A stretch of 64,000 nucleotides of DNA from Tribonema minus. Taxonomy: Eukaryota; Sar; Xanthophyceae; Tribonematales; Tribonemataceae. The stretch covers positions 62,001 to 126,000 of the forward strand of contig JAFCMP010000005.1 in NCBI GenBank assembly GCA_017506865.1. Direction: 5' to 3'. Below, in pieces: positions 2,937 through 63,731 of this stretch (positions within the stretch are counted from its first letter, which is position 1; each line of letters begins with the position of its first letter). Under the pieces are notes generated by a model. The model did not search any database. It was not told the DNA's origin and worked only from the letters and a program-made list of their open reading frames with translations. The position numbers were made by a program, and so were the translations under genes.

Positions 2937-2973
<37 letters not shown>

Positions 2974-5900
2974 GTGCATCGCTCAGCAGCAGTGCAGCAG
3001 CGGCGCTGCGCGCAGACCTCGAGGCGGCGCGCCGCAAGGCGCACCGCATGGCGTCGCGCGCCGCAGCCGCGCAGCAGGAGGCGGCGGACGGCGCGGCGGC
3101 GGCAGCGGCGGCGGCGCGCGAGCGCGACGCGGCGGCGGCGGCGCTGGCGTCCGCAGCGCTGGAGCACGCCAGCGAGACGCGGCAGCTACGCGCCAGCGAA
3201 ACCGCTCTGAGCGCGAGGATTGAGGAGCTGGGGGAGCTGCTGGCGGCGCGGCGGCGCGCGGAGGCGGAGCTGAAGGTGCGGTGTGTGATGTTGACGGTGC
3301 GGCGTTTGTAACCTAAAGCACAACGCGCGGCAGGGGGGCCGCAACGGCGGCAACAGCAGCAACGGCTGCGGACGAGCCACGACCTTCATTGTAATCTTCA
3401 CTCCAACTGTAAATCTGCCCCCCCTTAACAGACCGCTGCTGATGAGCGTCAAATGACCATGAGCAATGCAATACAGTGCGCATCAACATGCATTCTCCTG
3501 CCATGTACACAGCACACTTATGGTGGTCCAATAGTTGAGCACTGACGCACTCACCTGCATGCAAACTGCGCCGCCAGCGTCTGCACCTCGCACAGCCTAA
3601 CCTGTGGTGCAAGTAGCCGCGAGTGTTATGGGGTGTACTTGACCATGGTGACTCACCTCACACACACCCCTGCCCCCCTCTTTGCTGCTGTTGTAACCAG
3701 GATGCCGTTGGCGAGCGCGACGTCGCGCTGGCGCACGCGGAGGCGCGGCGCGCGGCGGCGGCGGACGCGGCGGCGGCGGCGGCGGGCGAGGCGGCGCGCG
3801 CGCAGCGCGGCGCGGAGGCAGCGGAGGCGCGCGCTGCGGCAGCGGAGCAGGCGGCCGCGGCGGCGGAGGCGGCGACGCGCGATCGCGAGCGCGCTGCCGC
3901 CAGAGCCTACGCTGGAGAGCGGGAGCGACTGCAGGTGGGGTACTTGTCGCGTTTGACGCAGAGCGGTTGACAAAGGGTCGCTCGTAAAGGCAGGATGTGA
4001 TGTGTATACTTCAAAGTGTGAGGTTCGTGGCGAGTGCTGCTGGGCCCCCGAAAGATGGCCCTGCTTTGGGGGCTTTGAGCTTCCAGCGGCGGCTCGCGGA
4101 AGGGCGGCGGCAGCAGTGACGAGGTTTCTATTCAAGCAGCGCTCAACTTGGATTGCATAAAGCATCTGTTTTGTACCTGAGGTGCTTCTATCTGTATTTG
4201 ATGAGCATACGCTCAAGACGTGTACATACATACATGTGAGATGATGCGGCAACACCTCGGGCATGCAGCGATATAGGCCCAGGTTCTCCCTGGAAGCGGA
4301 CTCTGCAGCGGCGCTTGGCGATGTGTTCGCGAGATCATCCGGGCACAATTGTGAGGCGCAAAGCATTCTTGTTCCGCGTGCGCGCTGCGCAATGTGCCGA
4401 GCACTGCTGCACCGACACATACCTACCTGCCCTAACTATCGCATATGTACGGCGACGGCGCACGCATGACTTTGTGCAGGCGGAGTGCTCGTGCAAGGGA
4501 GGGCTGCATGTTAGGCAGCTGGCTACCTGGTCCAGAAGAAACATCACTGTATATAGTACGCAAAACCGCGTTGCCACAGTCAGCAAGGCATAAACATCAG
4601 CAACTTGTAACCTGAAACAGGCGGAGTTCACCGCGGAGCGTGCGGCGGCGGCGGCGGCAGCGCAGCGCGAACTAGAAGCCAAGGCCGACTTTGAAGCGCT
4701 GACACAGGCGGCGACGGCGGTGAAGGCGGATGCGGCGGCGGCGGTGGTGGCGCTGGCGCGCGAGCAGCGCGCGCACGCGCAGGCGCGCGGCGCCCTTGAC
4801 ACTGCGGAGGCAGAGCGACAGCAGGTGCCTACTGCAAGTTGCAACCTTAGCCCTAGTGGAAACCGCAGCCCGAGCGGCTGCTAGCCCCAATCTGATCCCT
4901 ACTGTAGCGGTAACCCTAGCCCAAGTAGCAGATGCTTACTACTAGCCCAATCTTAGCCCTAGCGGTAACCCATCCCATAACTGTAACCCTCAACGTTAGG
5001 GCGTGACCCTAGTGCGAGCGCAGGCGCGCGGTGCCCTCGCCGCCGCCGAGGCGGAGCGACAGCAGGTGGTGACTAACCCTTCCACCAATTACCACCCTGA
5101 TCCTACCCCTAGCTCTGCAGTAGTTGTAATCTCAGCCCTCGTCATTACCCTAGTCCACGCGCAGGTGCTTGCTAGCCCCAACCCTAGCCCTAGAGGTAAC
5201 CCTAGCCTGAGTAGCTGCGAGCCCGGCCCTGGCCTTAGCCGTAACCTTCGCCCAAGCTGTTATCCAAAGGCAAATTTTTGCCACCGTAACCCTGGTCCAC
5301 GCACAAGCGCGCGGCGCTCTCGACACCGCCGAGGCGAGCGACAGCAGGTGCTTACTGCTAGCCCTAACTCTAGCCCTAGCGGTAACCCTAGCTTCAAGTA
5401 GCAGGTGGTCACTACTAGCCCCAACCCTAGCCCTAAAGGTAACCCTGGCCATGCAGCAGACGCCTACTGCTGGTCCCAACCCAACCCCAGCCCTACATAG
5501 CGGTAACCCTAGCCCGGCAGCAGGTGCTTACCACTAGCCTTAACCCTAGCCCTAGCGGTGCAATCTCAAGTAGCTGTAATCCTAAACATCACCGTAACCC
5601 TAGTGCATGGACAGGTGCGCGTCGCCCTCGACACCTCCGAGGCGGAGCGACAGCAGGTGATGCCTATCCCTAACCCAGAGTCTCACCCTGATCCCAACCC
5701 TAGCCCTGACCTAACCCACATCCTCACCCTGAATCCAACCCTAGGTTTAGGGTTAGCCTAGCCCAGACAGTGACCCCCTTCCGCGCGCAGATGCACGGCA
5801 CTGTGCCGCCGATGCAGCTGCAATGACAATCCTAAGAGCGTATCCATTATTGTGTGCAGAGATGGACCACCGAAGGACCCCAGTTGCCCTAAGACTCACG

Positions 5901-8900
5901 GATCCTAGTGGCGCATGCGTTTCCAGAGGAGGTTGCTGAGGACCAGCACGCTCTTGCATCAGCACCAACTTCAACTTTGCAAAAAGTCTCACGGCTCGTA
6001 GTGGCGCATGCATTTCCAGAGGAGGTCACTGAGAACCAGCACGCCCCTGTGTTCCAGCTTCAACTTCAAGTACAGCCCTTGCAGGCCCCAGTTCAACCTC
6101 AACACGCGCAGAGTCGCGCGCGCTGCCAATTCAATGCCAACACCAGGTCTCGAAGGAGCTCAAGTCCTGCACACGCGCGTCAAACGCATCAACTTTGGCG
6201 CTAGGCAGGGCCCAACTTCAACATGCGCTGAGCCGTCGCTCCGAACTTCAACAGGTTCTCGAGGAGCTCAAGTCGTGCACACGCGCGGCGGAGGACAGGG
6301 CGGAGGCGCTCAAGGCGGAGGCGCTCGCGTACGAGGAGAGGATCAGCGCGCTCGAGCGCGAGCTGCGGCGCGAGCAGAAGCAGGTGCGACTCAGACTCAG
6401 ACTCATGAGGCTCTGACTCAGACTCTTGAGAGGTGCGCATGCGCGAGCGTACGAGGAGAGGGTTAGCGCGCTGGAACGCGAGCTGCGGCGCGAGCAGAAA
6501 CAGCTGAGACTCTGAATTTGACTCAGGCTCTTGAGAGTAGCGTAGGCGCTCTCAACGCGTACGAGGAGAGGATCAGCGCGCTGGAACGCGAGCTGCGGCG
6601 CGAGCAGAAGCAGGTCAGACTCTGAGTTTGACTCAGACTCTTGAGAGTTGTGTGCGAGCTGGGCGCGCCGAGCGCAAGCGGGCGACTGCGGGCGTGGCTC
6701 TGTCTAGGGCTCTCGATCGTCAGCTGCTTGCGCCGGGCAGAAGCAGGCAAGACTCTTAATCAGACTCTCAAGTGCAAGCTCCGCTTTGAGCCGTTTCAAG
6801 TGAGACTCTGACCCAGGGTGAGTGCGTTGCTGCTCTCGAGAGCAGAAGCAGGCGAGACTCTGATTCACACTCTTGCATGCGAGCTGCGGCGTGAGCAGAA
6901 GCGCGTGCGACTCTGGCTCAGACACGCGAGCGCGAGCTGCGTGATTAACAGGGTAGACCCTGAGTCAGACTCAGAGTTGCTCTGCGTGTGCTGCACGGCG
7001 CAGCCGCCGCGACGGCAGCTCTTGGCACAGCGACAGCAGCAGTCGCTGCGGCGCACTGCCCATGCCTCCGGAACTGTCTGATCGCACCGCGACACGCGCG
7101 CGCGCTGAGCGTCGCCATGATGGCTGGCTTCACGGTAGGGTTATGGCTAGGGTCAGGATTAGGATTAGGATAAGGGTTAGGGTTAGAGTAAGGCGCCCCC
7201 TGCGGCAGACCTCCTCAGCGGTTCAAAGGCCTCTGACAGGAGGTCTCTGGCAGCCAAAAGCGGGGCAGGGGTGGAGGCGCGTGCTGCGTGAGTAAGGCTA
7301 GGGTTAGGGTTAGGGTTAGGGTTAGACGCGGCGCCGCTGCAAGTCCGGTGGAGCCACGGCGCGCGGACGCTGTCCGGTCGGCGCGTCATGCCTCGGTGAT
7401 CAGGGGTAGGGTTAGGGTGAGGGTTAGGGTGAGGATTAGGTTACGCGCACATGGAACGTCACCGTGGCGGGCGTGGAGACGTGTGTGCTGCGCGCGTGAT
7501 GCGGCGCAACCGCAACCCCGGGCGGAGCGGCTCGGCGTATCATGCCTCGGTGCTCAGAGTTAGGGTGAGGGTTAGAGTGAGGGTGAGGATTAGGGTTAGG
7601 CGCACATGGAGCGTCACCCTGCGATGGCGCGGGGCCCCATGACGTGCCCCCGCGGGAGAACAATGGGCGCTTGACGGCGGCCTTGGCGCACAGCTGCAAC
7701 TGGCGCAGCGCGCTGCTGTGCGATGCAGCGCCGCTCAGACGCCGCGGGGCGCCACGCGCGGGCGCTGTCGGGCCGCGGCGGCAGCGCTCATCACCCCCTG
7801 AACGATCACCAGAGGACGATGAATAAGGTTTCAAGTTGGAGGGTTGGGGTAGGTTTAGGTATGTAGCAGCAGGCGGCCGCGGGGGGCGCTGCTGCGCTGG
7901 TGGCAGTTTGGGAGAGGAGGCGGTCGCGCAAACGCTGCTTGAAGCGGTGTCAGTGCTCAAGAAAGGCGGACGGTAGCACATACCCTGAAGCACCTGAACT
8001 ATCACTACCGCGTTGCTCAACTGTGTACTTGCACATGCGCGGCGCGGTAGGCAGACGGCGTGCTTGCAGCGCATGACCACTCCGCGCCGTAGCGTCATAC
8101 TGCGCGCGCACGTGCAGCACACACGTGTACTTCTACATGCATTCATTCAGGCAGCCTAACCCTAGCCCTACCCCTAACCCTAAACTGCCTGCTTCGGCCG
8201 CAGGCAAAGGCAGCAGCGCTCGGCACCGCACTAGCGCAGGAGGAGTGGCGGCAGCGCGAAGAGCTGGTCAGGAGCGAGTGCGCCGCATGGCAGCAGCGCG
8301 CGGCGGCGCTGGAGGCGCGGGCGAAGGAGGCGGAGGCGGCGGGCGCCGCGCGCGCGCGCGCCGCGGAGGAGGCCGCAGCAAGCCACGTCAGCGAAGCAGG
8401 TGGGACCATACGTGTATGTGCTCTACAGCTGTGCATGCTGGTATATGTTCATATACCTGCATACCCATTACAGCATGCGCGCGCCGCGGAGGAGGCCGCA
8501 GCGAGCCACGTCAGCGCAGCAGTCGGGGGCATAGGCACAGACTTTGTACATTGTACTTCTACTACCTTTTTTGCGTAGGCAAACTCTGCGTATCCGTACG
8601 AGAATGCGGTACCTGAATGCATACCCGCGTACCTGACCAAGGTCATGCCAACATATACTTGTGGGGCAACGTATGCCCAACTCCTGAATGCATGAAGGCC
8701 TTTGCTGCCGCTCCTCCGCGCCTTCTCGCGAAAACTCGGCCAACCACGATGCGCAAACGCTGCAAGTGCCTGGAGATGGCATGTCACTGGCGTAACCGAA
8801 AACTGTAACTGGAACGTGCAGGGGCCTGAAAGCGCGCCGCGGACATGGCACTTGAGATACACTTGTCCTTCATGTCCTTCACAATGCGCGGACGCTGTGA

Positions 8901-11900
8901 CCATGTAACAACCAAAACTGCAACTGTGAAACATGCAGGGGCCTTGAAGCGGGTCGCGGACGTGACCCTTGAGATGAATGCGCGGACGCTGTGACTGCCA
9001 GGAGGTGGCATGTAAGTGACGTAACCAAAACTGCAACTGTTACTAACATGTGCAGGGGTGTTGACGCGGGCCGCGGACGTGGCCGTTGAGCAGCAGCGCT
9101 CAACAGAGGCGGTGCTCGCCGAGGCGCACGCTGAGGCATGTAACTGACGTAACCGAAACTGCAACTGTAATTAACATGTGCAGGGGCGTTGAAACGGGCT
9201 GCGGACGTGGCCGTTGAGCAGCAGCGCTCAACAGAGGCGGCGCTCTCTGAGGCGCACGCTGAGGCGCTGGGGCTGCGCAAGGAGGCGGAGCGCGCGTGCG
9301 AGGAGGCGCGGCTGCTGCGCGGCAGGCTGCGCGACGCCGAAGAACGCGCGGAAGAGGTACACAATAAGCCATACTTGCTCCCAAAATATGTACTTCAACG
9401 GTCAATAGGTGACTTGTTGCACGTGTTTAGCCTGTAACACAGCCTAATAAATGAGTCTAGCGTTGCGAGGAGGCGCGGCTGCTGCGCGGCAAGCTGCGCA
9501 ATGCTGAGGAGCGCGCAGAAAAGGTATGTATGTGCATGGCGCCAAAAACCCTTTGTTGCCAGAGAGAGTATTCTGGGTGTACATGCTGCGAAGCATGTAC
9601 TATTTGTAGTATAGTTTAGGCTGTATATGATGTGTGATGCACGCACGAGGAGGTGCACAGCAGTAGGCGCGCGAGCCGCTGCGCCTGCGGAGGCGCCACC
9701 AATGTGCAAAGAAGTGCATGATTATGATTGCTTTCAAGAATGTATGGCGAGTCATTAAGGGCGCGAGAAAACGCAGATGGCGTAGCACTTCTGAAGTGTT
9801 TCGGTGTGATTGTGGCAGGATAGCCTTGTCACCGCGCTGTGCGTAGCGGCAGACGCGCAAGGCGTTGCGCCTGCGACTACAGCGGCACCAGTCGTCGTGC
9901 ATTCATGAATGTGATTGCTTCCATGTGTGTGCTTCTGAAGTGTTTCACTGTGAATGCAGCGGCTGTTGTCAAGACGCTTTGCACAGCGGTAGGCGCGCGA
10001 GCCGCTGCGCCTGCGGCGGCGGCGGCGCCGATCGTACGTTCGTGATCATGAGTGCTTCGATGTGTGTACTTCTTTTTTTGTGTGTTTCATTGTGAATGCG
10101 GCAGCACCGTTGTCGTTAGTGTGATTGCTTCCGTGGCATCTGTGTACTTCTGAAATGTTTCATTGGTGAATACAGCAGGGCTGTTGTCAAGACGCGCAGC
10201 ACAGCGGCAGGCGCGAGAGCCGCCGCGCCTGCACCTGTACATCAAATTAATATCAGCAGGACTGCGGTCAGCACGAGGGGGGGGGGGGCGGGGGGGGGGG
10301 GGGGGGGATCGGCAGGGGTGCAGCCACTTGTCAGCGGCACTGCAGCACGAGCCGCTAAGCCCGGCCGTGGCAGCGGCTCGCACGCGCACAGGCAACGCAG
10401 GGAACAACAGCGGTCATATGCCGCATGCGCCGCCAACATGCAGCCATGGGGGTGCTGTAAAGGGGACGGGGGGGGGGGGGGGGGCATGGCCGCAGCAGCT
10501 CATCCGCTGCAGCGCGAATATCTGGCACCGGCGCTGAACGCGCGAGGCTTAGAGGGACTGCAATGGTCAGACGGAGATAGGGAGCGGACCGTCGCGTGCT
10601 GCTGCGACCGACAGCACACATGCAAAAACATTCACTCGACGCGCGGTCGGGTAGCTCATGGTTACATGTAGGGTTAGGACTAGGGTCAGGGGATGGGGGT
10701 AGGGCTAGACTTACGGGCGCAATGTCGTACTGCAAGTATATTGCGTGACCGAATCTGCAGCAAAGCGTATTTTGCGCATGTGCCTCTTCCGCGCGTTTTT
10801 CGGCGTCGCGCAGCCGGCCGCGCAGCAGCCGCAGCGTCTTGACAACAGCCTTGCTGTATTCACAATGAAAACCTTCAGGAGTACACACATCTAAGCAGTC
10901 ATACATCATCATGAACACACATCGAAGCCGCCGCTGCCGCAGGCGCAGCGCCTCGCGCGCCTGCCGCTGACGGCGCGGTGCCAAGGCGATCCTGCCACAA
11001 TCACACCGAAACACTTCAGAAGTGCGTACGCCACTTGCGCTTTCTTGCGCCCTCAACGACAAGCCATACATCTAAGCAATCATCATCATGCATGCACTAC
11101 CGGCGCCGCCGCCGCCGCAGGCGCAGCGCCTCGCGCGCGCCGCCGCGGAGCGCGCCGAGGCCACCGACGCCGCCGCCCGGCGCCTGCGCGCGCGCTGCGC
11201 GGAGGGCGACGACGCCGTAGCAGCGCTCAGCAAGCAGGTCGGCGAGGCGCGCGAGAGGGGCGAGCGCGTGGAGCGCGACGCGGCGCACGCGGCGGCGGCG
11301 GCGCGCGCCGCGGCGGCGGCGGCGGCGCTGCGGCAGGGCGACGCGGAGGAGGAGGCGGCGGCGGCGGCGCGCGACTGCAAGCAGCGCGCCGCGCTCGACG
11401 CCAGCGAGGTGCGTGGCTGCCGCCGCCGCCGCCGCTGTGATGCAGTGTGTGTTGCACAGTCTTGTGAGGGGGAGAGGGATGTGGTGAAGTAGTGTGCTTG
11501 TAAGACTGAGGTGAAAACGGGGGAGATGCGTGCGCGTGATTTTCCTGCGTGAGAGAGCGCAGAGCATGGCGCTGCTTGTGAAGGGGGGCTGCAAGGTGGT
11601 GACGACGGCAAAGGCTACTTCAACTTTGAAGGTGAACTTGTGTGTGTGCAAGGCACCAGTGATGAGGGCTCATCAAAACATTGTATTGGTAGTTCAGTGC
11701 GACGTAGGCCGTGGGCTCCCAATAAATGCATCAGTTGGCCCTAATCTGTAGCTTTCGTGCTGATTCTGACTCTGGGCGCGATGCGTGTGCTGGCGGCGGC
11801 AGCGGCAGGCGCGATGCAACCTCAAGAGTGACTTCCAAAGACCCTGATCATGAAGTCAAGGACGCCCATTCACCACCTGCAGCAATACATGTGGCGTCGG

Positions 11901-14900
11901 CGCTGCTGTCACACCCCTATTGAGGGGGGCACGCACGGTGACGCCGGGGACGGCACAAGCTACATGCGTGCCTGGGGGTTTGCGCATCCTGCTCGCTGCT
12001 CGAACCGAAGTCACTGCGCACGATGCAGGCCGCGCGCGCGTGGCGGCGCTGCTTGCGACGGCACGTGGGTGCGCCAAGTCAAGTAGCGTTTTCGCCGTGC
12101 TTCATTGGAACTGCGCGCTGTGGCAGACATCTACTTCGAAGTACACGATGCACTGTCCACGGGTCCTCGTTTGCAACTACTGTGTGAACTTCTGAGGTAA
12201 AGCAGGGCGGCGCGCGTGACGGCGAAGCTCCATGGTAAGATTCGCGCGCACGAGGACGCGCTGTCAGCTGCTATTGACGACGTCATAAAGCATCACTACC
12301 GCAACGTCAGTGAAACTGTGCGCCGCCGCAGACACATACCACATGCACTGCCCACAACGTCAGTCCTGTAGCCAACTGCGGGAAAGCAGGCGGCGCGCGT
12401 GGCGGCGACGCTCCACAGCGAGGTGCGCGCGCTCAAGGACGCGCAAAAGAGCATCGTAACGTCCCACTACCACAACGTCACTGGAATTGCGCGCTGCAGC
12501 AGACACCTACGACATGCGCTGCTCACACATGCCCACCCGTCATGAACCACCGCACTGTTGCAACAATGCAGGCGGCGCGCGTGGCGGCGACGCTGCACAG
12601 CGAGGTGCGCGCGCTCGAGGACGCGCTCGCGGCGGCGCGCGGCGCGGCGGCGCGCGAGGGCGCCATGTGGCGTGACGCGCACGCGGCGCTCGCGCGCGAG
12701 GGCGAGGGCACCGACGCGCGCTACCTCGACAACCTGCAGCAGCTCGCCGCGGAGAACGACGCGCTGCGGCGCGACGCGGCGGCGCACGCGGCGGAGGTCA
12801 GTGCTCAGCGCCCTGCCGCCGCTGCAGTTGCGCGTCGCCGCGCAGCGGGAGGCGGTGTGTTTGTTGTTGTTGCAGGAGCGTTTTGTGGATTGGTGGTGTT
12901 TGGTCGGGGTGCAGTTGAGTGTGTTGGCGGTGCGATCGCGCACTTGTCGGTACGCGCAGCAGCGCATGCGGCGGAGGTCAGTGCTCGACGCCGCCGCTGT
13001 TGCTGCTGCTGCGCCGCGCACCGAGAGGCGGGGTGTTTGTCGTTGTTGCAGGAGCGTTTTAAGGAGTGGCACTCTGGGTGTGTGTGTGTGTGTCCGGTTG
13101 TGGTTGGGCGTGCTGGGGATGTGATTGCGCGCATTGCGGTGCGCACCGATGCGGCTGCATGCGACTGAGGCCAGTTGCTGCTGCTCACACTTTCAAACAA
13201 AATTGGGAGCTTAGAGTTGGCCAGTGTCGTGCGGTCATCACCCCCACCCCTGTCACACCCTGCGGGTGCGGAACCGTGCGCATCGCCCGTTCTACCGAGA
13301 GCACAACGACCATCTCTCTAGCGTCAGTGATGTAAATCAACTTGACGTCACGCGCCTGCTGGGCAGTCCGACCGCCCACGCATCGCTGTCTCTGCCCACC
13401 TCAAGCTATGCCGGTAGCAATCACCCCTGTGCATGGCCAGCGTTGTCGCATTTGTCATCGCACCCTACGCTAGCCCCTCGGCGCCACACACTCGGCTCAC
13501 GCCCCGTGACGATCACCGCCGCAGAGGCTACCGTAAAGTACCGGGTAAACAGCCGCCTAGCAGTAAACAGCCCCTGCGCTGTAAAAGACCCGGGGGTCTT
13601 ATAGCACCAGGGGGTCACTGCCACCTTGAGCCCCCCTATATGGTAAAAAAGACCCAGGGGACGTTTGCCACGTGATGCTTTTGTCATTAGCTGTACCCAT
13701 GTCACTACATTTATGCTCAAAGTGCCATGAATGACGTGTGTTTACGGATATGTGTGTTACGTCACTGGGCCAGTCAGCACATGCTGCCCTAAAATGCAGA
13801 CATGTGATGCTGTTGTCGTGTATAAACGGCACAACGGTAACCTAACCCCCACCCCGTGGACGACAGCACTTCAGCCGTCACTCAAGTGTCAGTGAACCAG
13901 ACCAAGTCGTCACCTTGTCTTCGCTGCAGTCTGCCTTGCAGCCCACACATCGCTGTCCCTGCCCACATCAAGCTATGCAGGTAGGGAATGCCCCTGCGCA
14001 TTGCCAGCCTTGCCGTACTTGTCACCCGACCACCACCTCAGTGGCTCATGGGCACAGCTGCAGTGCACGCTGCTGCGATCGCTCCTGCCCGCATCGCCCG
14101 GTGCCCTCGCTTTTACGTGTCACCCCGGCCAAAACCCCCCGTCCGACTGCACCCTTCTCAGAGCCAACTTACACCATGTACATGTATATGCCCCCCCCTC
14201 CCCCCCCCCCCTCCCCTCCTCTCAGCAGTTGTCAATTAACACAGCAGTTGTGCAGTAGTCTAAACCCCTCCCCCCCCCGCCGCCTCCCCGATGCGGCGCG
14301 CAGGTGCAGCGGCTGACGTGCGTCGCGGCGGCGCGCGCGCACGAGGCGGCGCGCCTGTCGCGCGACCTCGCGCGCGCCGCCAAGGACCTCGACGCCGCCG
14401 ACACGCGCGCCGCGGAGCTGCGCGACGCCATGCGCGCGCTGCGCCAGTCCGCCGCCGCCGCCGCCGCCGCGGCGCCGCCGGTGCCACTGGGCGCCCGCGC
14501 GCTGCCGCACAAAGCGGCAGCAGCACCTCCGGGCCCTGGAGGGGATGCGCCGCTGCTGCTGCCGCGGAAAACAGCTGGCGCTGCTGGCGGCGGCGGCGGC
14601 GCGCGCGGCGGCGGCGTCGGCTGCAGCGGCGGCAGGCCGGCGAAATCTGGCGGCGCGGCTGGCGGCAGCGGCGGCAGCATCGCCCGTGATGCGGCGCTGT
14701 TGAAGGAGGTCGAGGCGCACCTGCACGCGCGCGCTGCGCAGGGTTTTGACGGCGCGTGCGATGCGGAGCGCGATGACCTAGACTCCCCTTCGACACCCAC
14801 CACTTGCAGCCTGTCGGACACGGAGAGCGGCGGCGCAGCAGCGACGGCGGCAGCAGCGGCGCGAGGCTGGGACGGCGGTGGTGCGGCAAGCGTGGCGGCA

Positions 14901-24285: not shown

Positions 24286-24318
<33 letters not shown>

Positions 24319-51052: not shown

Positions 51053-52103
51053 TCATGTGATCATGACAGAAAGGCTAGTGCCGATGCGCAGGGCAGTGCG
51101 GTATGAGCCAGGCATCTGCAGCGTCTGTAGGGATGGTGGTAGGGGACCCAGCTCCTGCTGGTAGCCGCTGCCGAGGCGCAGCACGCGTAGCGAGGGGGGC
51201 ATTGGGCCGAGCGGCTGGTTGAACATTGGTGACTTGCCCAGATCTAGCACCTCCAGCGCATCTGGAAGGGGGCCAAGGGGCTGGTCGAATTCGGGCAAGC
51301 CTATGGTGAGTGTGCGTAGCCCTACCGGCAGCAGCGCCGCAGCATCAGCCAATGGGATGCTCAACGCGATGCCTCCCTCTCCATGGCGCACAGGGTTGTC
51401 CATCTCTGGGTCCTCTATGACTACCAGCTCTCGAAGGGTCGCCGGCAGGTGTGTGAACAGGTGGCTGACGTCGTCATCGACACATGTGCTGCACGAACTT
51501 ATCGTCACACTGACCAGCTGCGACTCCTCGGATACAATGATTGGCCACCCTATGAGGCATGCCTCGACGTAAAGGGTCTCCACACTGGCTGCGATGTCGG
51601 GGAGGCAGTCGCACCTGTCTATTACCAGCAACGGCGCCTGCGGTATGGTGCTCAAAGCTCCCAAGCCGTCTATATTGTACATGGACAACTCACGCAGGCC
51701 TGTCGGAAACAGAAACGAGTCTGGAATGGTCTCCTGGACGAACCATCCATTTATATCCAGGCCCCGGCTGACACTTGAATATTTCCAGAAGCCTCTGAGC
51801 GACCTCCCACTGCGGCACATCGATGGTGAGCGCTTCCATGACAAACCTGCCGTCGGGCAGCGTTGCTGGCACACAATGCCGACCATTCACGTCATCGTCC
51901 AAGATGTAAACTCTCGCTATGGTCTTGCTGGCAACAATGCGCGGGAAGTGGTCCCAGGCAGCTCTGATCAGGTCCACATTACAGCTGCGAGAGCAAACAC
52001 GAGCGACAGAGAGAGGCACATCATTGCACATTCGGCTGCCAAGATCATAGCACAGATACAAGCGTGACTCAAGAAGGGCAGATATGACACAACAGCTTGC
52101 CAT
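51053..52103 (-). CDS. FNIP-like repeat protein (gene C), one frame change
   Basis: Leucine-rich protein with repeats of the FNIP type (LPDALEVLDLGKSPMFNQPL, LPPSLQTLQMPG). From ATG 52103 the first frame carries SVARVCSRSCN, an AWDHFPRIVASKTIARVY segment and DVPQWEVAQRLLEIF; the second frame from about 51775 carries RGLDINGWFVQETIPDSFLF and the repeats to the stop at 51053. Compared with the paralog at 53519-54406, there is one extra base near 51774-51780, so the copy is either a recent pseudogene or the base is an assembly error. The N-terminal part resembles the F-box-plus-repeat layout common for FNIP proteins, but an F-box is not certain. Gene C and its paralog are head to head. Confidence 0.6.
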
Positions 52104-53518: not shown

Positions 53519-54406
53519 TGCCCGCTCTCTGCCGCCCGTGTTTGCAGCTGTAACGTTCTTCTGAGCCAAGATTCTTGGGACCACCTTCCAAGCATCGCCT
53601 CCAGCAAGACCATTGTAACAGTAAGCAGCGACGATGTGGATGACCTCAGTTGGCTGCCAGCGATGCTGCCTGACAGCAAACTCAACATCGAAGACCTCAT
53701 CACGTGGCCGCCAACATGGGAGTGTGCTGCCAGTCTTCTTGATGTCTTCACTGTCAGTCGGCGCCTGAAGTTGGATGGAGAGTACATCAATAGAGACGTT
53801 CCACAATCGTTCCTGTTTCCAACAGGCCTTGACGAACTGGAGCTGATTTTTGCAGTTGGCCTGGCTGGTGTGACCGCCACGTCGCAGGCTTTGTCACTCG
53901 CGATAGCATGGTGCGCTGACCTCCCGCGCATCGCTCCCGTCGTGGAGAGGCTTTGCCTCGAGGCATGTAAGTTTGGCCAGCCAATTTCTATTCCCATGGA
54001 TTCGCAGCTGGTCGCTGTGACGGTGACGTTGTGCCGCTTATATCTCAATGCGCACGTCAGCCACCTGTTTTCACATCTTCCGGCGACCCTTCGAGAGCTG
54101 CAACTCGTGAATGACCCTGCTCTAGATGACCCCGTTGGAGATGAAGAAGTGGGTTTCATCTCCATCAACATCCCGTTGGCAGATGCGCTGCTGCCGGTAG
54201 GACTGCGTACGCTCATCATAGGCTTGCCTGCGTTCAACCAGCCCCTTGGCCCCCTTCCAGACGCAATGGAGGTGCTGGATCTCAGCAGATCACCCAGGTT
54301 CAACCAGGCACTTGGGCTATTGCCTCCGTCCCTTCGCGAGTTGCGCACTGACATTGGCTTCCAGCAAGAGCTGGGTCCCCTACCTGCATCCTACAGACGC
54401 TCGTGA
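53519..54406 (+). CDS. FNIP-like repeat protein (gene D), 5' exon not found
   Basis: Open frame from an AG at 53517-53518 to the TGA at 54406, homologous to gene C over its length: CPLSAARVCSCNV, SWDHLPSIASSKTI, WECAASLLDVF, DVPQSFLFPTGLDELEL, HLFSHLPATLRELQL, LPVGLRTLIIGLPAFNQPL and FNQALGLLPPSLREL. Because no ATG precedes the conserved start in frame (a TGA lies just upstream), this is probably a later exon joined to an upstream one. The C-terminus stops slightly earlier than in gene C. Function unknown; FNIP repeats usually mediate protein binding. Confidence 0.6.
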   Translation, partial: CPLSAARVCSCNVLLSQDSWDHLPSIASSKTIVTVSSDDVDDLSWLPAMLPDSKLNIEDLITWPPTWECAASLLDVFTVSRRLKLDGEYINRDVPQSFLFPTGLDELELIFAVGLAGVTATSQALSLAIAWCADLPRIAPVVERLCLEACKFGQPISIPMDSQLVAVTVTLCRLYLNAHVSHLFSHLPATLRELQLVNDPALDDPVGDEEVGFISINIPLADALLPVGLRTLIIGLPAFNQPLGPLPDAMEVLDLSRSPRFNQALGLLPPSLRELRTDIGFQQELGPLPASYRRS

Positions 54407-55059
54407 TGCCTGGCACTGGCATATACCAAGCTCCCGTGCGCATCGGCGCTAGCCGTTCTGTCACATGATGACCGCTGTGATATCACAATGACTATTATGA
54501 AGATGTTCATGGATGCAGATTCTTTGAGCTCTCTGTTTGTCTGTGTGTGGCCACACCAGTGTCATCCTTGCCGTGTCCACTTCAACTCTGATGTGAAGTT
54601 GATAGTCTGGAAAGCTGCGGGAAAAATGAAAAGGTGATGAGAAAAGAATGTCTCGTCAAGCTTTGCAAGCTCCGAAGCACGCATCTCATGGTTGAGTCAA
54701 GCGGGGCTGACTCAGCTTGCAGAGCATCAAAGGAGGAGTTTGCAAATGAGTTTCTGCTGCACATACATCTTGTACTTCATAGACATATTGTAAGAGATTG
54801 CAGCGTCAGCAGTTGATGAATATGGTTACATGTCAGCATCAGCCTGCTTTCTGCATTTTGGCTTTCTCACTGCTTCCATTAGGTTACAGAGCACCATTGT
54901 CATCCAGTTATTAACCAACTTCAAGTGTATAAGTCTTCGCAAGAGACAGGCGAATGTACATGCTTTACATACAGAAGAGTACATGTGTGCTAGTAGGCCT
55001 CCACGAGATGCGGATAGGTATGTAGCTGTAGCATGTAGCACCATGGCGTAGCAGAGATC
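54407..55059. other. Flank between FNIP-like gene D and the LINE
   Basis: No gene. The last part probably belongs to the 5' untranslated end of the retroelement, whose exact left border I cannot fix without a second copy. Confidence 0.4.
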
Positions 55060-56394
55060 ATGAAAAGAATATCATGGCGGCGGCGGGAGGCCCGTATTGC
55101 CAACTCTGAATCAGCGCAGAAATGCAAGGAATCCGATCTAGCGTGCGCACAAGCGCAGGATATTAGCACCAGTGCTGCAGATGGCAATGGCGCTTGTCAA
55201 CAGGACGATGGGACGAGTGGCAGCAGCAGAGCAACTGGAGACGGACGCGCAGCGCACAAACGCAAGAGGGTACAGAATGACGGTTGGTCAATTTCCGATC
55301 AAACAGGCGAAGGGGAGCACACGGGCGGGCAAAGTGCAGTCAAGCGCTCTAGAACAGGTCATAACAGTCTGGAACAGCAACGTCTGATGCTAGACGACGA
55401 AGCTGGAGGTGGAGGCAGTGCGGACCCGGAGTACAAGTGCAACTTATGCGACCTCGTGGTGAAGAAGGGCATGTCGCTGCTCTCGTTACAGCAGAGGTTA
55501 AACGCCCACATCGCGGCGAAGCACCAGCGCAAACACCACAGTGGGACAGCAACAACGTTCCTGGAGCGCTCCGACCTCAGCACGTCGCACTTGCAAACCA
55601 TCTACACCGAGTGTGCCTTGTGCAAAAACCTGTTTCATGCCAACAAGACATTCAGAGTGGACAGCAGCGATGCCAGCGCGGGCAAGCACTGCCGCAAATG
55701 CAGGCCTATCACTTCACCCGCTGCAGTGGCGGCAACATTGTCAACAACAGCATCAGCAGCACCGCTAGCACCTGATGCATCGACGGCAACAGCTACCACG
55801 TCGCTGCCACAGCAGCAACCGGCGTGCACACCCATCGGCAACCCCTACGCAAAGGGACCAGCGCACGCGCAGCAGGCACCTGCTGCTCAGGCTGGTGGCA
55901 GCAGCTCCTCCGGCAGCTCAAAGAGGCCGGAACGCGGGGGCAGCAGTGCTACACGAGGGGGTCGGGGTCGCAGTGGAGGGCGCGGACGTGGCAATGGAGG
56001 ACGCGTTCGCAGCGGCAGCAATGATGCAGACATCAGCAGTAGCAGAGCGACTAGCGGCAGCAGAACCGGAGGCGGCAGCAGCAGCGGTGCCGGCGGCGGC
56101 AGTGCAGCCGGTACTAAGGACAGCGGCGCTGGCAACGGCCGCAGCAGTGATGCCAGCAGCCGCAGCGGCGGTGCTAGCAACAGCGGCAGTGGCGCGCAAA
56201 CTCAAAACGGCCGCGGTGGCCGTGGCAGCGGTCGCAGCAGCGACAGCGGCGGACGAGGCTGTGGTCATGGCGGCCGCGGCGGCGGCGGAGGGGGCCCCAG
56301 AGCGGCAGGTGCGGCGACAGCAGCGGCAGCGCCAGGCCCTGCAGGCGCAGCAGTCCAAACACCCCCCCGCTGCGCCAGGGGAACAACTCCATGA
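55060..56394 (+). CDS. LINE ORF1: zinc fingers and Gly/Ser-rich tail
   Basis: 444 residues from ATG 55060. A C2H2-type finger (C127, C130, H150, H155) is followed by a second Cys cluster (CALCKNLFHANKTF to CRKC, about residues 185-211). These are as expected at the N-terminus of RLE-type LINE proteins, where they bind target DNA. The remainder is Gly/Ser/Arg-rich low complexity. It overlaps ORF2 by 620 bp in another frame. In related elements fingers and reverse transcriptase are usually on one protein, so either two proteins are made here or the frames are linked by a shift in the low-complexity overlap. Confidence 0.65.
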   Translation: MKRISWRRREARIANSESAQKCKESDLACAQAQDISTSAADGNGACQQDDGTSGSSRATGDGRAAHKRKRVQNDGWSISDQTGEGEHTGGQSAVKRSRTGHNSLEQQRLMLDDEAGGGGSADPEYKCNLCDLVVKKGMSLLSLQQRLNAHIAAKHQRKHHSGTATTFLERSDLSTSHLQTIYTECALCKNLFHANKTFRVDSSDASAGKHCRKCRPITSPAAVAATLSTTASAAPLAPDASTATATTSLPQQQPACTPIGNPYAKGPAHAQQAPAAQAGGSSSSGSSKRPERGGSSATRGGRGRSGGRGRGNGGRVRSGSNDADISSSRATSGSRTGGGSSSGAGGGSAAGTKDSGAGNGRSSDASSRSGGASNSGSGAQTQNGRGGRGSGRSSDSGGRGCGHGGRGGGGGGPRAAGAATAAAAPGPAGAAVQTPPRCARGTTP

Positions 56395-59300
56395 GCTATC
56401 CGGCATGGTTGATCAGCTTGTGGCGAAAGCAGCCGACATGCCAGCAGAACTCAGCCTGTTACAGGGGGAGGGAATTGAGCCAGAGACGGTTGCCAAGCTC
56501 ATCCAGCGAGCAAGCCCTTACAGTGGAGCAGGCCCATCGGGGCTGCGCTACAGCCACCTGCAGGATGCGCTACGCACAAGCTGGGGACGGCATGAGTTTG
56601 CTGCTGTCCTCACACGGTGGCTTCAGACCGTTATGCGGGAGGCTGCGCGGCTGCCGGATGCCTTCTGGCAGTTGCATGGCGCGGGGCGCCTGACGCCACT
56701 TGCAGAACAACAGGAAGATGGTACAGCTAAGCAGCGGCCCATCGTTTGCGGCGAGGTGCTGCAGCGACTATGCACTTCGGTGTACGTGGCAGACCGCAAA
56801 GACTTCCTGGCGGAGCTCCTTGAGCCAGACGGGCAGTATGGGGTAGCCGTCTCAGCAGGAGCGGAGAAAGCGGCCATGGCCGGCAAACTCGCGTATGAGC
56901 TCGGTCACTGGCAGTTCATGCTGGACCTCAAGAATGCCTTCAACATGGTGTTCGTCCTGGCGGCAGCGGAATGGGTAGCAGCACAGCTGCCGGACTTCCT
57001 CGACTACTTCATCGGCACATACGTTCGCACTCGGCCACGCCTGCTGTTCCAGCACGTTGACGGCTCCACGCGCATCATCATGTCTCAGCGCGGGTTTAAG
57101 CAGGGGGACCCCGCGGCACCGATGCTCTTCTGCGGCGCCATTGCTCAGTGCTTGAAACGGTTCAATGAGGCGGCGGCTGCGCAGCGCGCGCGGAGGCGGA
57201 TGGGCGCCTACATGGACGATGCCAACGTCCGAACAGGCGCTTGCACGCTGACTCAGGATGACATACAGGCGGTGGCGCAGCTCAAACAACACTTTGCGGA
57301 GGTGGGGCTGGAGCTAAACCTCACCAAGTCACGCGCGCTGCCTGGCAGGGGGCATGTGGTGACAGACCACGAGCGGCAACTGCTGCAGCAGCTGGGCGTT
57401 CAGCTAGTGGGGGATACGGATGAAAATCAGAACCGTGGAGCTGTGTTGCTGGGGGTGCCGGTGGGCCACAGCAGCTTTGTGGACGCATGGCTGCGCAGGG
57501 AAGCGGGTGCAGGCGGGGCAGGGGCTCGATTTGCAGAGCGATGCGCGCGCCTGACATCTCCGAGGGCTATGTTCAGGTTACTGCGCTACTGCGTGGTGCC
57601 TCGCATGACGTACTGCCTGCGCACCATTCCCACTACGCAGACAGCGCCAGCCGCCAAGGAGTGGGATCGGGTCACGCAGTGGGTGCTTGAGCACTCAATG
57701 GGCCTGCAGCCACCAGGCCAGACCTGGCGCCAGTTTGAGCAAAGTGGGGCCCACTTCCATCTGGCAGCGCACGGCCCAGCCTTACAGCAAGCGCGACTCC
57801 CAACACGGCATGGCGGCCTTGGCATTACCAGCGCCTGCGACATCGCTGATGCTGCGTATGTGGCGGGCACGTTGCAAGCGCTGCAACCAGCACTCTCTGG
57901 ATGGGCGGGGGTGCTGCAGCAGGCGGCTCCTCAAGCGGCTGCAGACAACGCTGCTGAGGATGCGGCAACACAAGCGGCACCGGCAGCAGCGGCAGCAGCA
58001 CCAGCACCAGCAGCATCAGCAGCGGCAACTGTTACAGCGGCAGCGGCGGTTGCCAGTGGAGGCGCGACCGCTCCGGCAGCGGCAACTGCATCAGCGGCTG
58101 GCCGCGCTTATGGCGCAGCCATTCTGGCAACACACGACGCAGCTGCCGCTGGATCAGGGGCCGCGGCGGCAGCACAGGCGGCACCAGCGGCAGCAGCAGC
58201 AGCGGCGGCGCACGGCGCAACTACTCCGGCGGCAGCAGCAGCGGCGGCAGCAGCAGCTGCTCCAGCATCAGAGGCTGCTGCAGCAGCGGCAGCACATGTT
58301 GCACCTCAAGTGGCCTCGGCGGCATCACTAACTGCAGCATCAACAGCAGCGGCTGCGGGCATAGGCAATACAGCTGCTACAGGCCCTACTAGCCTAAGGG
58401 CTGCTGCAGCACCTGCAACAGGAGCAGCGTCGGCAGGCGGCGCCGCAACCGTGCCGGCTGCGACAGCGGCAATGGCGGTGGCAGCGGCCAATGCGGCAGG
58501 TGCTGCACCAACACCTGCGGCAGCAGCAACACCACTGGCAGCAGCAGCAACGGCAGGCGGCACAGCTGCAGCACCAGCGCACGCAGCAGCGGCAGCCGTC
58601 AATGCAGGCGCTGCGCGTTCCACACCAGCAATGCTACAAGGCGCAGCAGCAGCAGAGGTGGCGCGCCTGCCCCTCATGCGGACGATCGCCACAGCTGCCA
58701 CATCTCTACGTGCAGCAACAGGTGACAAGCTGGAACATATACTGCCACCAGCGCTAACGCCACTGCAGCAGCAACCACCTACGCAGCAGCCGCCGCTGCG
58801 GCCGACAGCAGGTGGTGGCACTGGTGCGGATGCTGCTTGCGTACTTGACGCCAGTGCTCTGCAGTTGCAGTGTAGCCTGAAGCGCCCCAATCAGAGTGCG
58901 CTTGCAGATGCCGTCGCTACCGAGCTTGCAGATAAGGTGGAGGCGGACCTGCAACAGCTGCCGCAGGGCACGCAACGCACGCAAGCACTTGCTCGATTCC
59001 GGTCGCAGCGCCACATGCACTCGATCGGCATGGCATTCCTCAACGAGCCCATGTACTCCACAACGGCTTCGTTCGATGGCCTATCCTGGCAGCTGGCCGT
59101 CAAACGCGCCATCGGAGTAGAGGAGCAGACGGCAGGCTGCAAGCTGTGCGGGAAGTCGCCGGGCGGCACCCTGCATGCACGGCTGTGTCAAGCGCCACGC
59201 GTCAAGGCGCACGACACCATTGTCCACAATAGCGTCAAGAGGGCCACGCAGCGCCTCCTGCGGCAATACCTCAAACCGGGACTGGTGGACGAGGACTACA

Positions 59301-59845
59301 CGCCGTTTCTGGGGTCCGCCGGGCCGCCGGGGAGTCGCAGGATGGACATCGTGCTGCCTGCCGACGCCTTCCCGGTGACCGGCTACGACGACCCGACACG
59401 CCACCTACCGCTCATGGTGGACGTTACCTGCTTCGAGGCACAGGTGGCGTCGCGGGCGGCGAAGACTGCAGCAGACCCCGAGCGATGCTGCCGCGACCAA
59501 GAGGCCGCCAAGACTACCCACTATTCTGGTCATTATGATCAGAATTGCTACAAACTTGCCACATTGGCAATAGGGTCATTTGGCAGCATCGGGGAGCAGG
59601 GGCGGAAGTTGCTGGAGGCTGTGGCGACGGAGTATGCCAGCAGGATGTCAGTGCCCGGAGGAGCGCGCCCTAAAGCTCTCAAGGGCATCGCCCTGGCGCG
59701 CTTACGCTCGGCACTGTCGGCAGCGCTCCACATGGCGTACTCTGGCCGTGTCATGACACACATGGCAGAATCCAGGGGAGGGGGGCACATGGAGGAGGAC
59801 GTAGGGGAGGACCCCGAGATGCCATTTGGCGGCGGCGGCGTTTGA
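55775..59845 (+). CDS. LINE ORF2: reverse transcriptase plus restriction-like endonuclease
   Basis: 1,356 residues from ATG 55775; the first 200 overlap ORF1 and are low complexity, so real coding may start later. Reverse transcriptase motifs: SPYSGAGPSGLRYSHLQ (about 247), FMLDLKNAFNMV (about 380-392), SQRGFKQGDPAAPM (about 437) and the catalytic YMDD at 479-482. A long Ala-rich spacer (about 700-1050) precedes the C-terminal domain: zinc knuckle C1122-x2-C1125-x8-H1134-x3-C1138, then HDTIVHNSVKRA, RRMDIVLPAD (D1191) and LMVDVTCFEAQ (D1216), the order seen in R2-like endonucleases of PD-(D/E)XK fold. No APE endonuclease is present. YMDD instead of the common YADD or FADD of LINEs is notable. 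Confidence 0.85.
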   Translation: MHRRQQLPRRCHSSNRRAHPSATPTQRDQRTRSRHLLLRLVAAAPPAAQRGRNAGAAVLHEGVGVAVEGADVAMEDAFAAAAMMQTSAVAERLAAAEPEAAAAAVPAAAVQPVLRTAALATAAAVMPAAAAAVLATAAVARKLKTAAVAVAAVAAATAADEAVVMAAAAAAEGAPERQVRRQQRQRQALQAQQSKHPPAAPGEQLHELSGMVDQLVAKAADMPAELSLLQGEGIEPETVAKLIQRASPYSGAGPSGLRYSHLQDALRTSWGRHEFAAVLTRWLQTVMREAARLPDAFWQLHGAGRLTPLAEQQEDGTAKQRPIVCGEVLQRLCTSVYVADRKDFLAELLEPDGQYGVAVSAGAEKAAMAGKLAYELGHWQFMLDLKNAFNMVFVLAAAEWVAAQLPDFLDYFIGTYVRTRPRLLFQHVDGSTRIIMSQRGFKQGDPAAPMLFCGAIAQCLKRFNEAAAAQRARRRMGAYMDDANVRTGACTLTQDDIQAVAQLKQHFAEVGLELNLTKSRALPGRGHVVTDHERQLLQQLGVQLVGDTDENQNRGAVLLGVPVGHSSFVDAWLRREAGAGGAGARFAERCARLTSPRAMFRLLRYCVVPRMTYCLRTIPTTQTAPAAKEWDRVTQWVLEHSMGLQPPGQTWRQFEQSGAHFHLAAHGPALQQARLPTRHGGLGITSACDIADAAYVAGTLQALQPALSGWAGVLQQAAPQAAADNAAEDAATQAAPAAAAAAPAPAASAAATVTAAAAVASGGATAPAAATASAAGRAYGAAILATHDAAAAGSGAAAAAQAAPAAAAAAAAHGATTPAAAAAAAAAAAPASEAAAAAAAHVAPQVASAASLTAASTAAAAGIGNTAATGPTSLRAAAAPATGAASAGGAATVPAATAAMAVAAANAAGAAPTPAAAATPLAAAATAGGTAAAPAHAAAAAVNAGAARSTPAMLQGAAAAEVARLPLMRTIATAATSLRAATGDKLEHILPPALTPLQQQPPTQQPPLRPTAGGGTGADAACVLDASALQLQCSLKRPNQSALADAVATELADKVEADLQQLPQGTQRTQALARFRSQRHMHSIGMAFLNEPMYSTTASFDGLSWQLAVKRAIGVEEQTAGCKLCGKSPGGTLHARLCQAPRVKAHDTIVHNSVKRATQRLLRQYLKPGLVDEDYTPFLGSAGPPGSRRMDIVLPADAFPVTGYDDPTRHLPLMVDVTCFEAQVASRAAKTAADPERCCRDQEAAKTTHYSGHYDQNCYKLATLAIGSFGSIGEQGRKLLEAVATEYASRMSVPGGARPKALKGIALARLRSALSAALHMAYSGRVMTHMAESRGGGHMEEDVGEDPEMPFGGGGV

Positions 59846-60803: not shown

Positions 60804-63731
60804 CTAGTTGGCAACGGTGTTCGGGGGCGGCGCGTTGGCGGCGGGCGCGCGCAGGTGCACAAGGTTGTCGAGTGTGCGCGCCATGATCTCGCTGGCGGCG
60901 CGCGCGCGCTGCACGCGGCGCACGCGGCGCTCGAGGCGCGTGCGTATGTACGCGATTTCTGCCGTAGGGCCGGCCTGGAATGCATCCAGGGGCATGTAGG
61001 AAGCGGTGACAGTCAGGAGAAGAGCAGCGATGCGCATCTGTGTAAGGCGGGACTAAGTGTGTAAGGCGTTACTGAGTGTGGGCCGCTGCACATGGCGTGC
61101 ACGGCGCGCAGGGCGCTCGAGGCACATTCGTACGTACGCATTTCCGCCATAGGGCCGGTGTGCCGGGCGCGTGCGGGGGTACAAAGTTTGCGGTCAGCAG
61201 AAAGAGGCAGTGATGCGTGTCTGTGTAAGGTGGGGTTGAGTGTGGGCCGCTGCACACAGCGTGCGCGGCGCACGCGGCGCTCGAGGCGCGTGCGTATGTA
61301 CGCGATGTCCGCCGTAGGGCCGGCCTGGAATGCAATCAGACGTACGTAGGTAGCGGCGAGGTCAGGAGAAGAAGCTTGCGATTGCACATCTATACAAGGC
61401 AGGATTGAGTGTGGGCCGCTGCACGGCGCGCGCGGCGCACGCGGCGCTTGAGGCGCGTGCGTATGTACGCAATTTCCGCCGTCGGGCCGGCCTAGTGCTT
61501 GCGCGGCGGTAGGTAGCGGTGGCAGTAAGGAGAAAAAAGCGGTGATCGCGCGTCTGTGCAATGGCGGGGTGGAGTGTGGCTGCTGCGCAAGGCGTGCACA
61601 ACGTGTTGTTGTCCTTATATTGCACCTCAAACGCGAATGACCATGCGAGTGCGGTGCATGCAGAAGCGCTGTCCAGCGTGACTGCCATTTGCCTGATCTG
61701 CGCAACTTCATTACGATTGCCCGCAACTGTACGACCACCTGATTGGCTTTGTTATGCGAGCTAGTCGGAGCAATTGCCATCTCCGGCAAATCGCTCCAGA
61801 TCTTCATAGAAGTACTTCTTTATTGTTATGTGGCATGTGGCATTGCCTGCCTACGTGTGGCACATGAGGACTGTGCCCATCTCGCAGCGAATGCAAGAAT
61901 GTTGCTGTTGGAGCATATGGCAGTCACACGCTCATTGACAGTTGCACGCTTGACGGTCATGGCGGCTACACTTGCCAGTACACAGATCACAATGCATTCG
62001 CTCCTAGCAGCAGCCCCTAGCAGCAGCCCTCTACATTGCAGCAACTGTGTGCGCGCCATGCCTCAGCCGCTGCTGAAGCCGCTGGCGTCTACGTTTATTC
62101 TGCACCGCGTTAACGCTCGTATGCGTGTGCAAGCGCACACACCACGCGCAAAGACAGGTGCTCAAATTGCTCAGACAGCAGCAGCGGAAGGCAACAATGG
62201 CTGTTTTCAACGATGCATGGTGCGACATTGCTGGACATTGCTGGACATTGCTGATGGGCGGCTGCAATCACCTGTATGACCTGCCCGTTGCTGAAGACAA
62301 TGGCGGCGTCCGACAGCTCCAGCACCGTGTTCATGCTGTGCGATGAGAACAGGATGCCCACGCCGTGGACGTTGAGCAGCCGCCTCATGACGCCCTCCAC
62401 CCTGACGCGCACTCTGCAATATACATACATACCATACACAAAAACAGGTGCGAGAGGGGGGGGAGGGGGGGGCATCAGCGCACTCTGCGTATACATCCAT
62501 ACACCAACAGGTGCGGGCGAGGGGGGGTGGGGGGGTGAGGGGCATCAGTGCATCACACTGCAGAAGATTCCGCAGGTGTACGTCGCGTACTTACAAGTGT
62601 GCCACGACGCATTGTCTGAAAAGTGGCGCTGGCAACAGACCTGCGCAAGCAATGGGTTGCATTTGCGGCTTTTCGTGTTGACGCAGCATGCATGTGCATG
62701 CCTGCGATGTCAGGGCTTCGGCGTGACATGCGCACGACATGTACCGGGAGGGGGGGCACAGTCGTGCATCCTACATTGGTGGCGTCATATGTATAGCCCT
62801 CATGCGTCAAAGCTACTATTGAGGGCGCAAAGCCGCACATTACCAAATCTGCTCATGTGCCCAAGCCTGATCAAGTGCTCCGCTTGAAGTTGTGTGCTGT
62901 ATGATGCGCTGCCACGTTGCACATGGGACACATTGAGCTCCATACAGTTGGCTCTCTTGGTGTACACAAACACAAACATACTTGCACAAAAAATACATAC
63001 ACAGCGCTCAGCACTGGCGCCCGTGGCTCACTTCGCGAACACAGCGCAGTGCGCTCGGGCTCAGTCACCCGTCGCACTCACAGATAACCACAATACTGGC
63101 GCCGGCACGCATTCATACGCTGGCATGTACTTTGTGTGTGTACTGTGCACTCACGCACATGCCTTGCCTCAAATCCTTACGGACAACGCGCTTAGTGCAC
63201 TAGCAGCCCAGGAGGCTACTCCTTGCATTTATAGATCCCTTGCAAGTACACTCAACTTTGAAAAGGGTGTTCGCAACTGGTATACATTGATGTATGCACA
63301 TCCCCTAGCTACAAAGAAACGTTTCATCTGCGCTATTTAAACCTTGCATGCCATCCTTCCATTTCAGCAATGCAATGCTTGCTTTGTAGACTCATTTGGA
63401 CACAGCAAATGTGACCTTGCCCCAGCCAATCTGCTAACAGCTGGCAGCTTCAACAAGCACTACACTGTATTCTATTACAGGAGGGGGTGAGGGGGGGGGC
63501 AGGGGGGGCCCCGTGAACATTCTTGTTCAGTATATATGTATGCATCTACTCTCTGTACACACATTCCCTTGATGATTATTGATAATCAGTCACTGTATGA
63601 AGCAGGCCTCACCTCTGATCCTCGTGGTCCAGAAACTCGTCGCACAGCAGCACAGGGGGCTCCGGCCCCGCTACCCCCGCCGCAAGCGCCATCGCCAGCC
63701 CAAAACGCAGCACCTCGCCGCCTGACAGGTC
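60804..63731 (-). CDS. ABC transporter ATPase, 3' part of gene
   Basis: Nucleotide-binding domain of an ABC transporter, in three minus-strand exons: 63731-63613, 62413-62272 and 60974-60804 (phases 2 and 0; stop TAG at 60804). The first holds the signature LSGGE and Walker B VLLCDEFLD. The second holds the H-loop segment GVGILFSSHSMNTVLE and SDAAIVFSNGQVIQ. The third continues AGPTAEIAYIRTRLERRVRR and ends APPPNTVAN. The order and the GQ-x-GP ending resemble ABCG-type domains, though the subfamily is uncertain. Walker A and the membrane part would lie upstream, beyond the right edge of the window or in exons not recognised between 63732 and 64000. The introns hold G-runs (62455-62470, 62520-62536). 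Confidence 0.7.
60880..61505 (-). repeat. Four copies of the last-exon acceptor of the ABC gene
   Basis: On the minus strand, GCATTCCAG|GCCGGCCC.ACGGC followed by about 60 exon bases through CGCGTGCGCCGCG recurs with AG equivalents near 60975 (used), 61158 (damaged), 61325 (intact AG) and 61492 (intact AG). The period is about 167-183 bp. Each copy is followed by the same GTGCAGCGGCCCACACTCA type spacer. Confidence 0.8.
62455..62540 (+). repeat. Poly-G tracts in ABC gene intron
   Basis: Two G-rich runs broken by single bases, each next to a near-identical stretch GGCATCAG.GCA..., ATACATCCATACACC and CAACAGGTGCG.GCGAG, so this is a tandem duplication of about 65 bp containing the G-run. Similar G-runs occur at 63480-63510, 44727-44830 and 10276-10308. 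Confidence 0.6.

Follow-up and report, generated by a model that had tools for sequence, protein, structure and literature searches.

Junction copies inside introns of Tribonema minus suggest that introns lengthen by recurrent duplication at their edges

Tandem arrays with repeat units from tens of bp up to about 200 bp, in variable copy number, are known within introns as minisatellites, and internal gene duplication with intron creation is said to have been treated by Gao and Lynch in 2009. In potato, a local tandem duplication over part of an exon and the adjoining intron, including the splice site, is described for RdRp in the consulted sections of the report (Ma et al., 2016, PMC4974935), and single duplications of an exon-intron border can create introns or exons according to excerpts of four papers (PMC4974935, PMC2891723, PMC3629103, PMC3443670). 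The AGGT model proposes the tandem duplication of an exon segment (Rogers, 1989; Hellsten et al., 2011; both as cited in excerpts of PMC4974935 and PMC3443670), 24-nt arrays of tandem exon-derived units inside an intron are reported from fission yeast (excerpts of PMC3629103), and in Drosophila intron sliding and tandem duplication near splice sites alter intron borders (Lehmann et al., 2010, PMC2891723, in part). Introners are presented in the consulted sections of Gozashti et al. (2022, PMC9860276) as a genome-scale intron process found mainly in fast-evolving lineages such as green algae.

In the window (the whole 64-kb stretch of Tribonema minus DNA analysed here), copies of splice junctions lie inside the intron that the junction itself borders, forming ladders that comprise between 1 and 6 inner copies under the score cut-off applied. 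As in internal gene duplication, the nearby duplicated unit holds exon as well as intron sequence; that process, as far as the excerpted sources go, yields a new intron or an inserted exon, whereas in the window the intron pre-exists and the unit would become intron filler. Repeated events at many junctions also set the ladders apart from single border-spanning duplications. Minisatellites have the array form of some ladders, but the units in the window contain in addition the host exon edge and the splice site. The AGGT model, as excerpted, shares tandem exon-derived intronic units with the ladders and predicts intron ends resembling the opposite exon edges, which was found for 0/17 introns in the window. 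Intron birth by exon duplication was rejected on the same count, reciprocal end similarity above the best of 100 shuffles being absent at either end (0/17). Drosophila intron sliding consists of scattered cases from species comparison, with no inner-copy ladders described in the consulted part of the paper. Introners, according to the excerpts, share sequence across unrelated introns, in contrast to the units in the window, which are private to each intron; they were rejected as candidates, since pairwise comparison of all 17 introns gave one 33-bp antisense match, which involves two introns belonging to a single gene. The statement of the original prediction that no named element class behaves like this fits the literature searched, as recurrent junction-spanning ladders are not described in the titles or abstract openings among the matches listed, but junction-spanning internal tandem duplication as a type of mutation is known. 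The window differs from the duplications described in those sources by the recurrence at many junctions of pre-existing introns and by the product, which is intron length and not a new intron.

Five gene models were assembled manually within the window, guided by open frames and GT-AG signals, comprising nine exons of a coiled-coil gene (CC), four of EamA, four of gene B (minus strand), three of the ABC gene (minus strand, near the end of the window) and two of a TPR gene. The frame is open at all exon joins, and the models contain 17 GT-AG introns, i.e. 34 junctions; they were not drawn up blind to the ladders. The spliced EamA protein gave an EamA Pfam match (residues 291-432, E=3.1e-22) which runs over the exon 3/4 join and therefore supports it. 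Similarly, the exon borders of gene B are supported by its alignment with an intronless paralogue within 38778-40016 (42% protein identity), for which a Pfam search gave no match. CC is without a homologue here and its model rests on frame and splice signals. Pfam searching gave no name for the ABC gene fragment, which is presumably an ABC gene from an LSGGE-like motif seen by eye and the label of the original prediction. A tblastn search for relatives among viral contigs found none. The window also holds an inverted pair of FNIP-repeat genes (51017-52016 and 53522-54504; DNA 69.5% identical), the first above and the second below the Pfam cut-off, a long open frame at 55769-59845 with a reverse transcriptase domain (PF00078), which we take to be LINE-like, and a 4.6-kb open frame at 22532-27151 with HAT_KAT11, two bromodomain stretches and a PHD finger below the Pfam cut-off. 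The 3' end of CC and the DNA downstream of it are duplicated (14881-17099 and 17614-20111, about 2.7-3 kb apart, in pieces of 64-78% identity), and CC intron 4 carries short telomere-like TAGGGT/CCTAAC runs (7136-7600 and 8155-8183).

Copies of the junction inside its own intron were found at 15 of the 34 junctions, spread over 11 of the 17 introns, in CC, EamA, gene B and ABC. They occur at donors and acceptors, on both strands and in the four unrelated genes, just as the original prediction had claimed. For their detection, the 60 exon bases at each junction served as query, and their best score in the own intron was set against those in each of the 16 other introns and in 100 shuffled versions of the own intron. 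Fourteen junctions beat all 16 other introns and all 100 shuffles, and for 13 of these the match reaches to within 2 bp of the junction; the CC intron 7 donor passes on score with a match that stops 28 bp before the junction and was left out of the 15. Two further junctions, the CC intron 8 donor and the ABC intron 1 acceptor, were detected once the intron side was included in the query, the latter being the weakest case. Own-intron scores amounted to 39-110 at 13 of the 34 junctions, compared with a maximum of 37 against other introns for any of the 34. The ladders and single copies are located as follows, the used site being given by the two bases that flank it.

4774-5708, plus strand: CC intron 3 donor ladder; used donor 4824/4825
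4927, 5018, 5161, 5298, 5515 and 5612, plus strand: starts of the inner copies of the CC intron 3 donor
6094-6287, plus strand: CC intron 3 acceptor copy (6094-6179), with the used acceptor 6254/6255 adjoining
6315-6984, plus strand: CC intron 4 donor ladder; used donor 6383/6384; six inner copies from 6435 to 6984
8354-8533, plus strand: CC intron 5 donor copy; used donor 8399/8400; the copy at 8477-8533 has TC, not GT
8749-9265, plus strand: CC intron 5 acceptor ladder; used acceptor 9183/9184; copies start at 8778, 8888 and 9007
9297-9526, plus strand: CC intron 6 donor copy; used donor 9356/9357; the copy at 9460-9526 is exon sequence plus GTA
10884-11155, plus strand: CC intron 6 acceptor copy (10884-10987); used acceptor 11120/11121
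12012-12627, plus strand: CC intron 7 acceptor ladder; used acceptor 12571/12572; copies start at 12012, 12199 and 12383
12775-13175, plus strand: CC intron 8 donor copy (12955-13031); used donor 12796/12797
33212-33662, plus strand: EamA intron 2 acceptor ladder; used acceptor 33625/33626; copies start at 33263 and 33436
33786-34162, plus strand: EamA intron 3 donor ladder; used donor 33817/33818; copies start at 33888, 33974, 34031 and 34096
34395-34833, plus strand: EamA intron 3 acceptor ladder; used acceptor 34806/34807; copies start at 34395, 34523 and 34594
42223-42653, minus strand: gene B intron 3 acceptor ladder; exon 4 starts at 42259, a border backed by the intronless paralogue; copies 42450-42362 and 42621-42546
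60911-61597, minus strand: ABC last-intron acceptor ladder; last exon starts at 60974
61158-61095, 61382-61264 and 61534-61414, minus strand: inner copies of the ABC last-intron acceptor
62407-62535, minus strand: ABC intron 1 acceptor copy; exon starts at 62413; the copy holds 7 exon bases only

At a score of at least 32, a total of 45 inner-copy alignments was counted. The junction is crossed with at least 6 exon and at least 4 intron bases by 32 of them, at 14 junctions, and the remaining 13 include exon-only and intron-only matches. The copies stop at differing depths in the exon, as had been noticed before, with a longest exon reach per junction of 7-82 bp (median 41). Ladder-free introns stand beside the ladder-bearing ones (6/17: CC 1, CC 2, EamA 1, B 1, B 2 and TPR 1), again in line with the earlier observation; at the B intron 2 donor a short look-alike near 44236 was noticed by eye and lies below the thresholds. 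In the acetyltransferase region (27152-31000), which was scanned as a region without a splice model, the filters left no local direct repeat. Overall, such repeats make up 33.7% of intron bases vs 8.3% of exon bases, and 3.0% of the bases outside the modelled genes and other long coding frames. The suggestion that the pattern is a property of the genome is supported in part, the analysis covering one 64-kb window in which 9 of the 15 ladders belong to CC.

Sliding 40-bp exon tiles were then matched to the adjacent introns and binned by their distance from the junction. Strong matches were obtained for 22/68 tiles at 0-19 bp, 11/68 at 20-39 bp and 4/68 at 40-59 bp, for 0/235 at 60-139 bp, for 4/98 at 140-199 bp, all from one exon (CC 7), and for 0/338 at more than 199 bp. 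Within the window, exon-derived copies in introns come from the junction edges and not from random exon positions.

The mean divergence between copies is about 11% for exon sequence and about 16% for intron sequence, and there are indels as well. Relative to intron drift, mismatches in the exon copies amount to 0.50 at codon position 1, 0.41 at position 2 and 1.28 at position 3 (28/381, 25/380 and 70/375), a pattern expected when one of two copies is under coding constraint and the other is free to change. The copy at the exon edge is thus constrained, and the inner copies drift. Polarisation with at least two inner copies assigned 0/1/6 changes at codon positions 1/2/3 to the used copy. Changes specific to inner copies (21/19/37) are likewise biased to position 3, as would be expected if the used copy had been duplicated several times in succession, although residual coding constraint may also contribute. 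A frame-changing gap was observed in 11 of 30 aligned inner copies, and 32 of 37 would, if used, break the frame or introduce a stop. That one copy per ladder fits the phase, as originally stated, was therefore nearly right: an open frame would result from the use of 5 of the 37 inner copies, and of these 3 have an intact GT or AG. Judged from the frame and the codon-position constraint, the inner sites are probably not spliced in RNA, and the same two features argue against the duplicated units having added an intron or exon to the mRNA. The dinucleotide is kept as GT in 11/19 inner donors and as AG in 15/18 inner acceptors (Fisher P=0.15). Selection against decoy GTs, suggested by GT in 6/13 readable crossing donors vs AG in 16/18 acceptor copies, was rejected as a candidate, the fuller count (P=0.15) being not significant.

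We consider it probable, at roughly three chances in four, that these introns were lengthened from their edges by recurrent local duplications of about 60-240 bp whose unit holds the splice junction. Such an event would leave two copies of the exon end, the splice site and some intron (at an acceptor, the mirror image). Frame and codon-position constraint suggest that only the copy contiguous with the exon preserves the protein, so that this copy would remain in use; the other copy, now inside the intron, would turn into ordinary intron sequence and drift. Later duplications with other breakpoints would extend the ladder, and such differing breakpoints would explain why the copies reach different exon depths. 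Replication slippage, microhomology-mediated repair or unequal exchange may be the molecular cause. For several ladders local tandem duplication is the simplest cause, since neighbouring copies share an offset, for example 102 over 301 aligned columns at EamA intron 3 and 184 over 265 columns at CC intron 7. Some ladders are head-to-tail arrays (TRF rows 6447-6648, 9007-9265 and 33913-34149, with mismatches and indels), and other copies are spaced. The CC intron 5 and intron 6 donor copies (57 and 63 aligned bases, offsets 123 and 167) are separated from the original by an unduplicated spacer, and both junctions of CC intron 6 also occur as inverted copies within that intron, so that template switching or later deletion or rearrangement must be added to the duplication model. 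The exon end at the CC intron 6 donor is inverted at 9308-9361 vs 10779-10832 (54 bp, 94%) and the acceptor region at 9667-9978 vs 10833-11138 (323 columns, 79%). A long hairpin is predicted for the RNA from 9667 to 11138, with the CC intron 6 acceptor region in its outer stem.

Any unit whose two ends fall in exon and intron, respectively, necessarily includes the junction, and crossing alone therefore proves no junction-specific mechanism; the evidence for a junction preference is mixed. Edge duplication is compatible with duplications that arise at random everywhere and are lost from exons by selection, the ladders being the visible junction-crossing share of the surviving intron and junction duplications, and this we regard as slightly short of an even bet. 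It agrees with the point-level test, in which random points in the same introns were crossed like the junctions (9.2 expected, 11 seen, P=0.27), and with the overlap of unit sizes among intron interiors, junctions and DNA outside genes, but under uniform placement the family-level densities and the short exon share would be unexpected. Machine labelling gave 13 junction-crossing and 8 interior families, and 7 outside the modelled introns; the CC 6 donor and EamA 3 acceptor families were relabelled as junction-rooted from sequence inspection, and the exon-exon low-complexity family at 2631-3845 was dropped, together with two low-complexity coding families for the per-kb densities. On these partly hand-labelled counts, 15 junction-rooted families were found vs 0.7-2.0 expected from background densities, and junction-rooted families are, on the same partly hand-labelled basis, 7.5 to 21.7 times denser per kb of target than the background. 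Among intron families, 15/20 are junction-rooted vs 6.0 expected for random founding units (P=0.0008 counting only 13), the fraction of the unit taken from the exon is small and departs from uniformity (mean 0.30, KS P=0.0009, 15 junctions), and interior families are about as dense in introns (0.27 per kb) as they are outside genes (0.19 per kb). All of this would suit a refinement of the edge-duplication model in which junctions are true hotspots, a transcription- or splicing-coupled process targeting duplication to within about 80 bp; candidates are a paused polymerase, an R-loop, or a step in nucleosomes or base composition at the exon edge. We hold this refinement tentatively and below even odds, given the absence of a junction excess at the point level, the concentration of the ladders in CC, the two families relabelled by hand and the three low-complexity coding families dropped from the counts, and an exon constraint that keeps junction ladders recognisable for longer than interior arrays. 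The disagreement between the point-level and family-level tests may, in our reading, be due to ladders that grow inward and fill the intron.

Explanations that would replace edge duplication fare worse. The many inner copies that retain GT (11/19) or AG (15/18) might have been maintained by selection to serve as decoys or as a backup for splicing, but the first two codon positions show 7% mismatch, from which about 85% retention is estimated even in the absence of selection; donors fall below this estimate, acceptors about equal it, and the difference between them is not significant (Fisher P=0.15). As the inner copies moreover drift and break the frame, we think such a role improbable. Re-insertion of spliced RNA or splicing intermediates, the latter named as a possible cause in the original prediction, has in its favour a few copies that end within 3 bp of the junction (5018, 5612, 9460 and 61158). 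Most junction-crossing copies contain intron sequence, though, and when the best match per strand was taken for each of the 17 exon-exon joins, no intron copy convincingly spanned a join. The match of B join 2 (39103-39166) lies in the intronless paralogue, outside the modelled introns, B join 3 matches its own acceptor copy with 6 points above the exon part alone, which was taken as chance, and the matches of CC joins lie outside the modelled introns with scores near those of shuffled queries. This origin was therefore dismissed as very improbable. Tandem regions are difficult to assemble, but misassembly would not give copies that have diverged by about 11% (exon) and 16% (intron), with indels and a structure by codon position, and an assembly artefact is hardly credible.

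How introns lengthen is poorly known, and duplication at their edges would be a concrete source of intron sequence which brings its own built-in control, the exon copy being constrained and the inner copy not. Long introns are found across the relatives of Chlamydomonas, where the advantage of keeping them is unknown and the driver probably ancient, according to the consulted sections of Craig et al. (2021, PMC8226300). It is conceivable, if rather doubtful, that splice junctions of this lineage are mutational hotspots at which a process coupled to transcription or splicing repeatedly duplicates 60-240 bp across the exon edge, that introns grow edge-inward at many genes, and that this could explain the unusually long introns of some green algae. 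If the ladders occur genome-wide, they would provide numerous natural experiments on how a splice site is chosen among almost identical ones, and if junctions are indeed hotspots, splicing or transcription would shape DNA mutation at exon edges.
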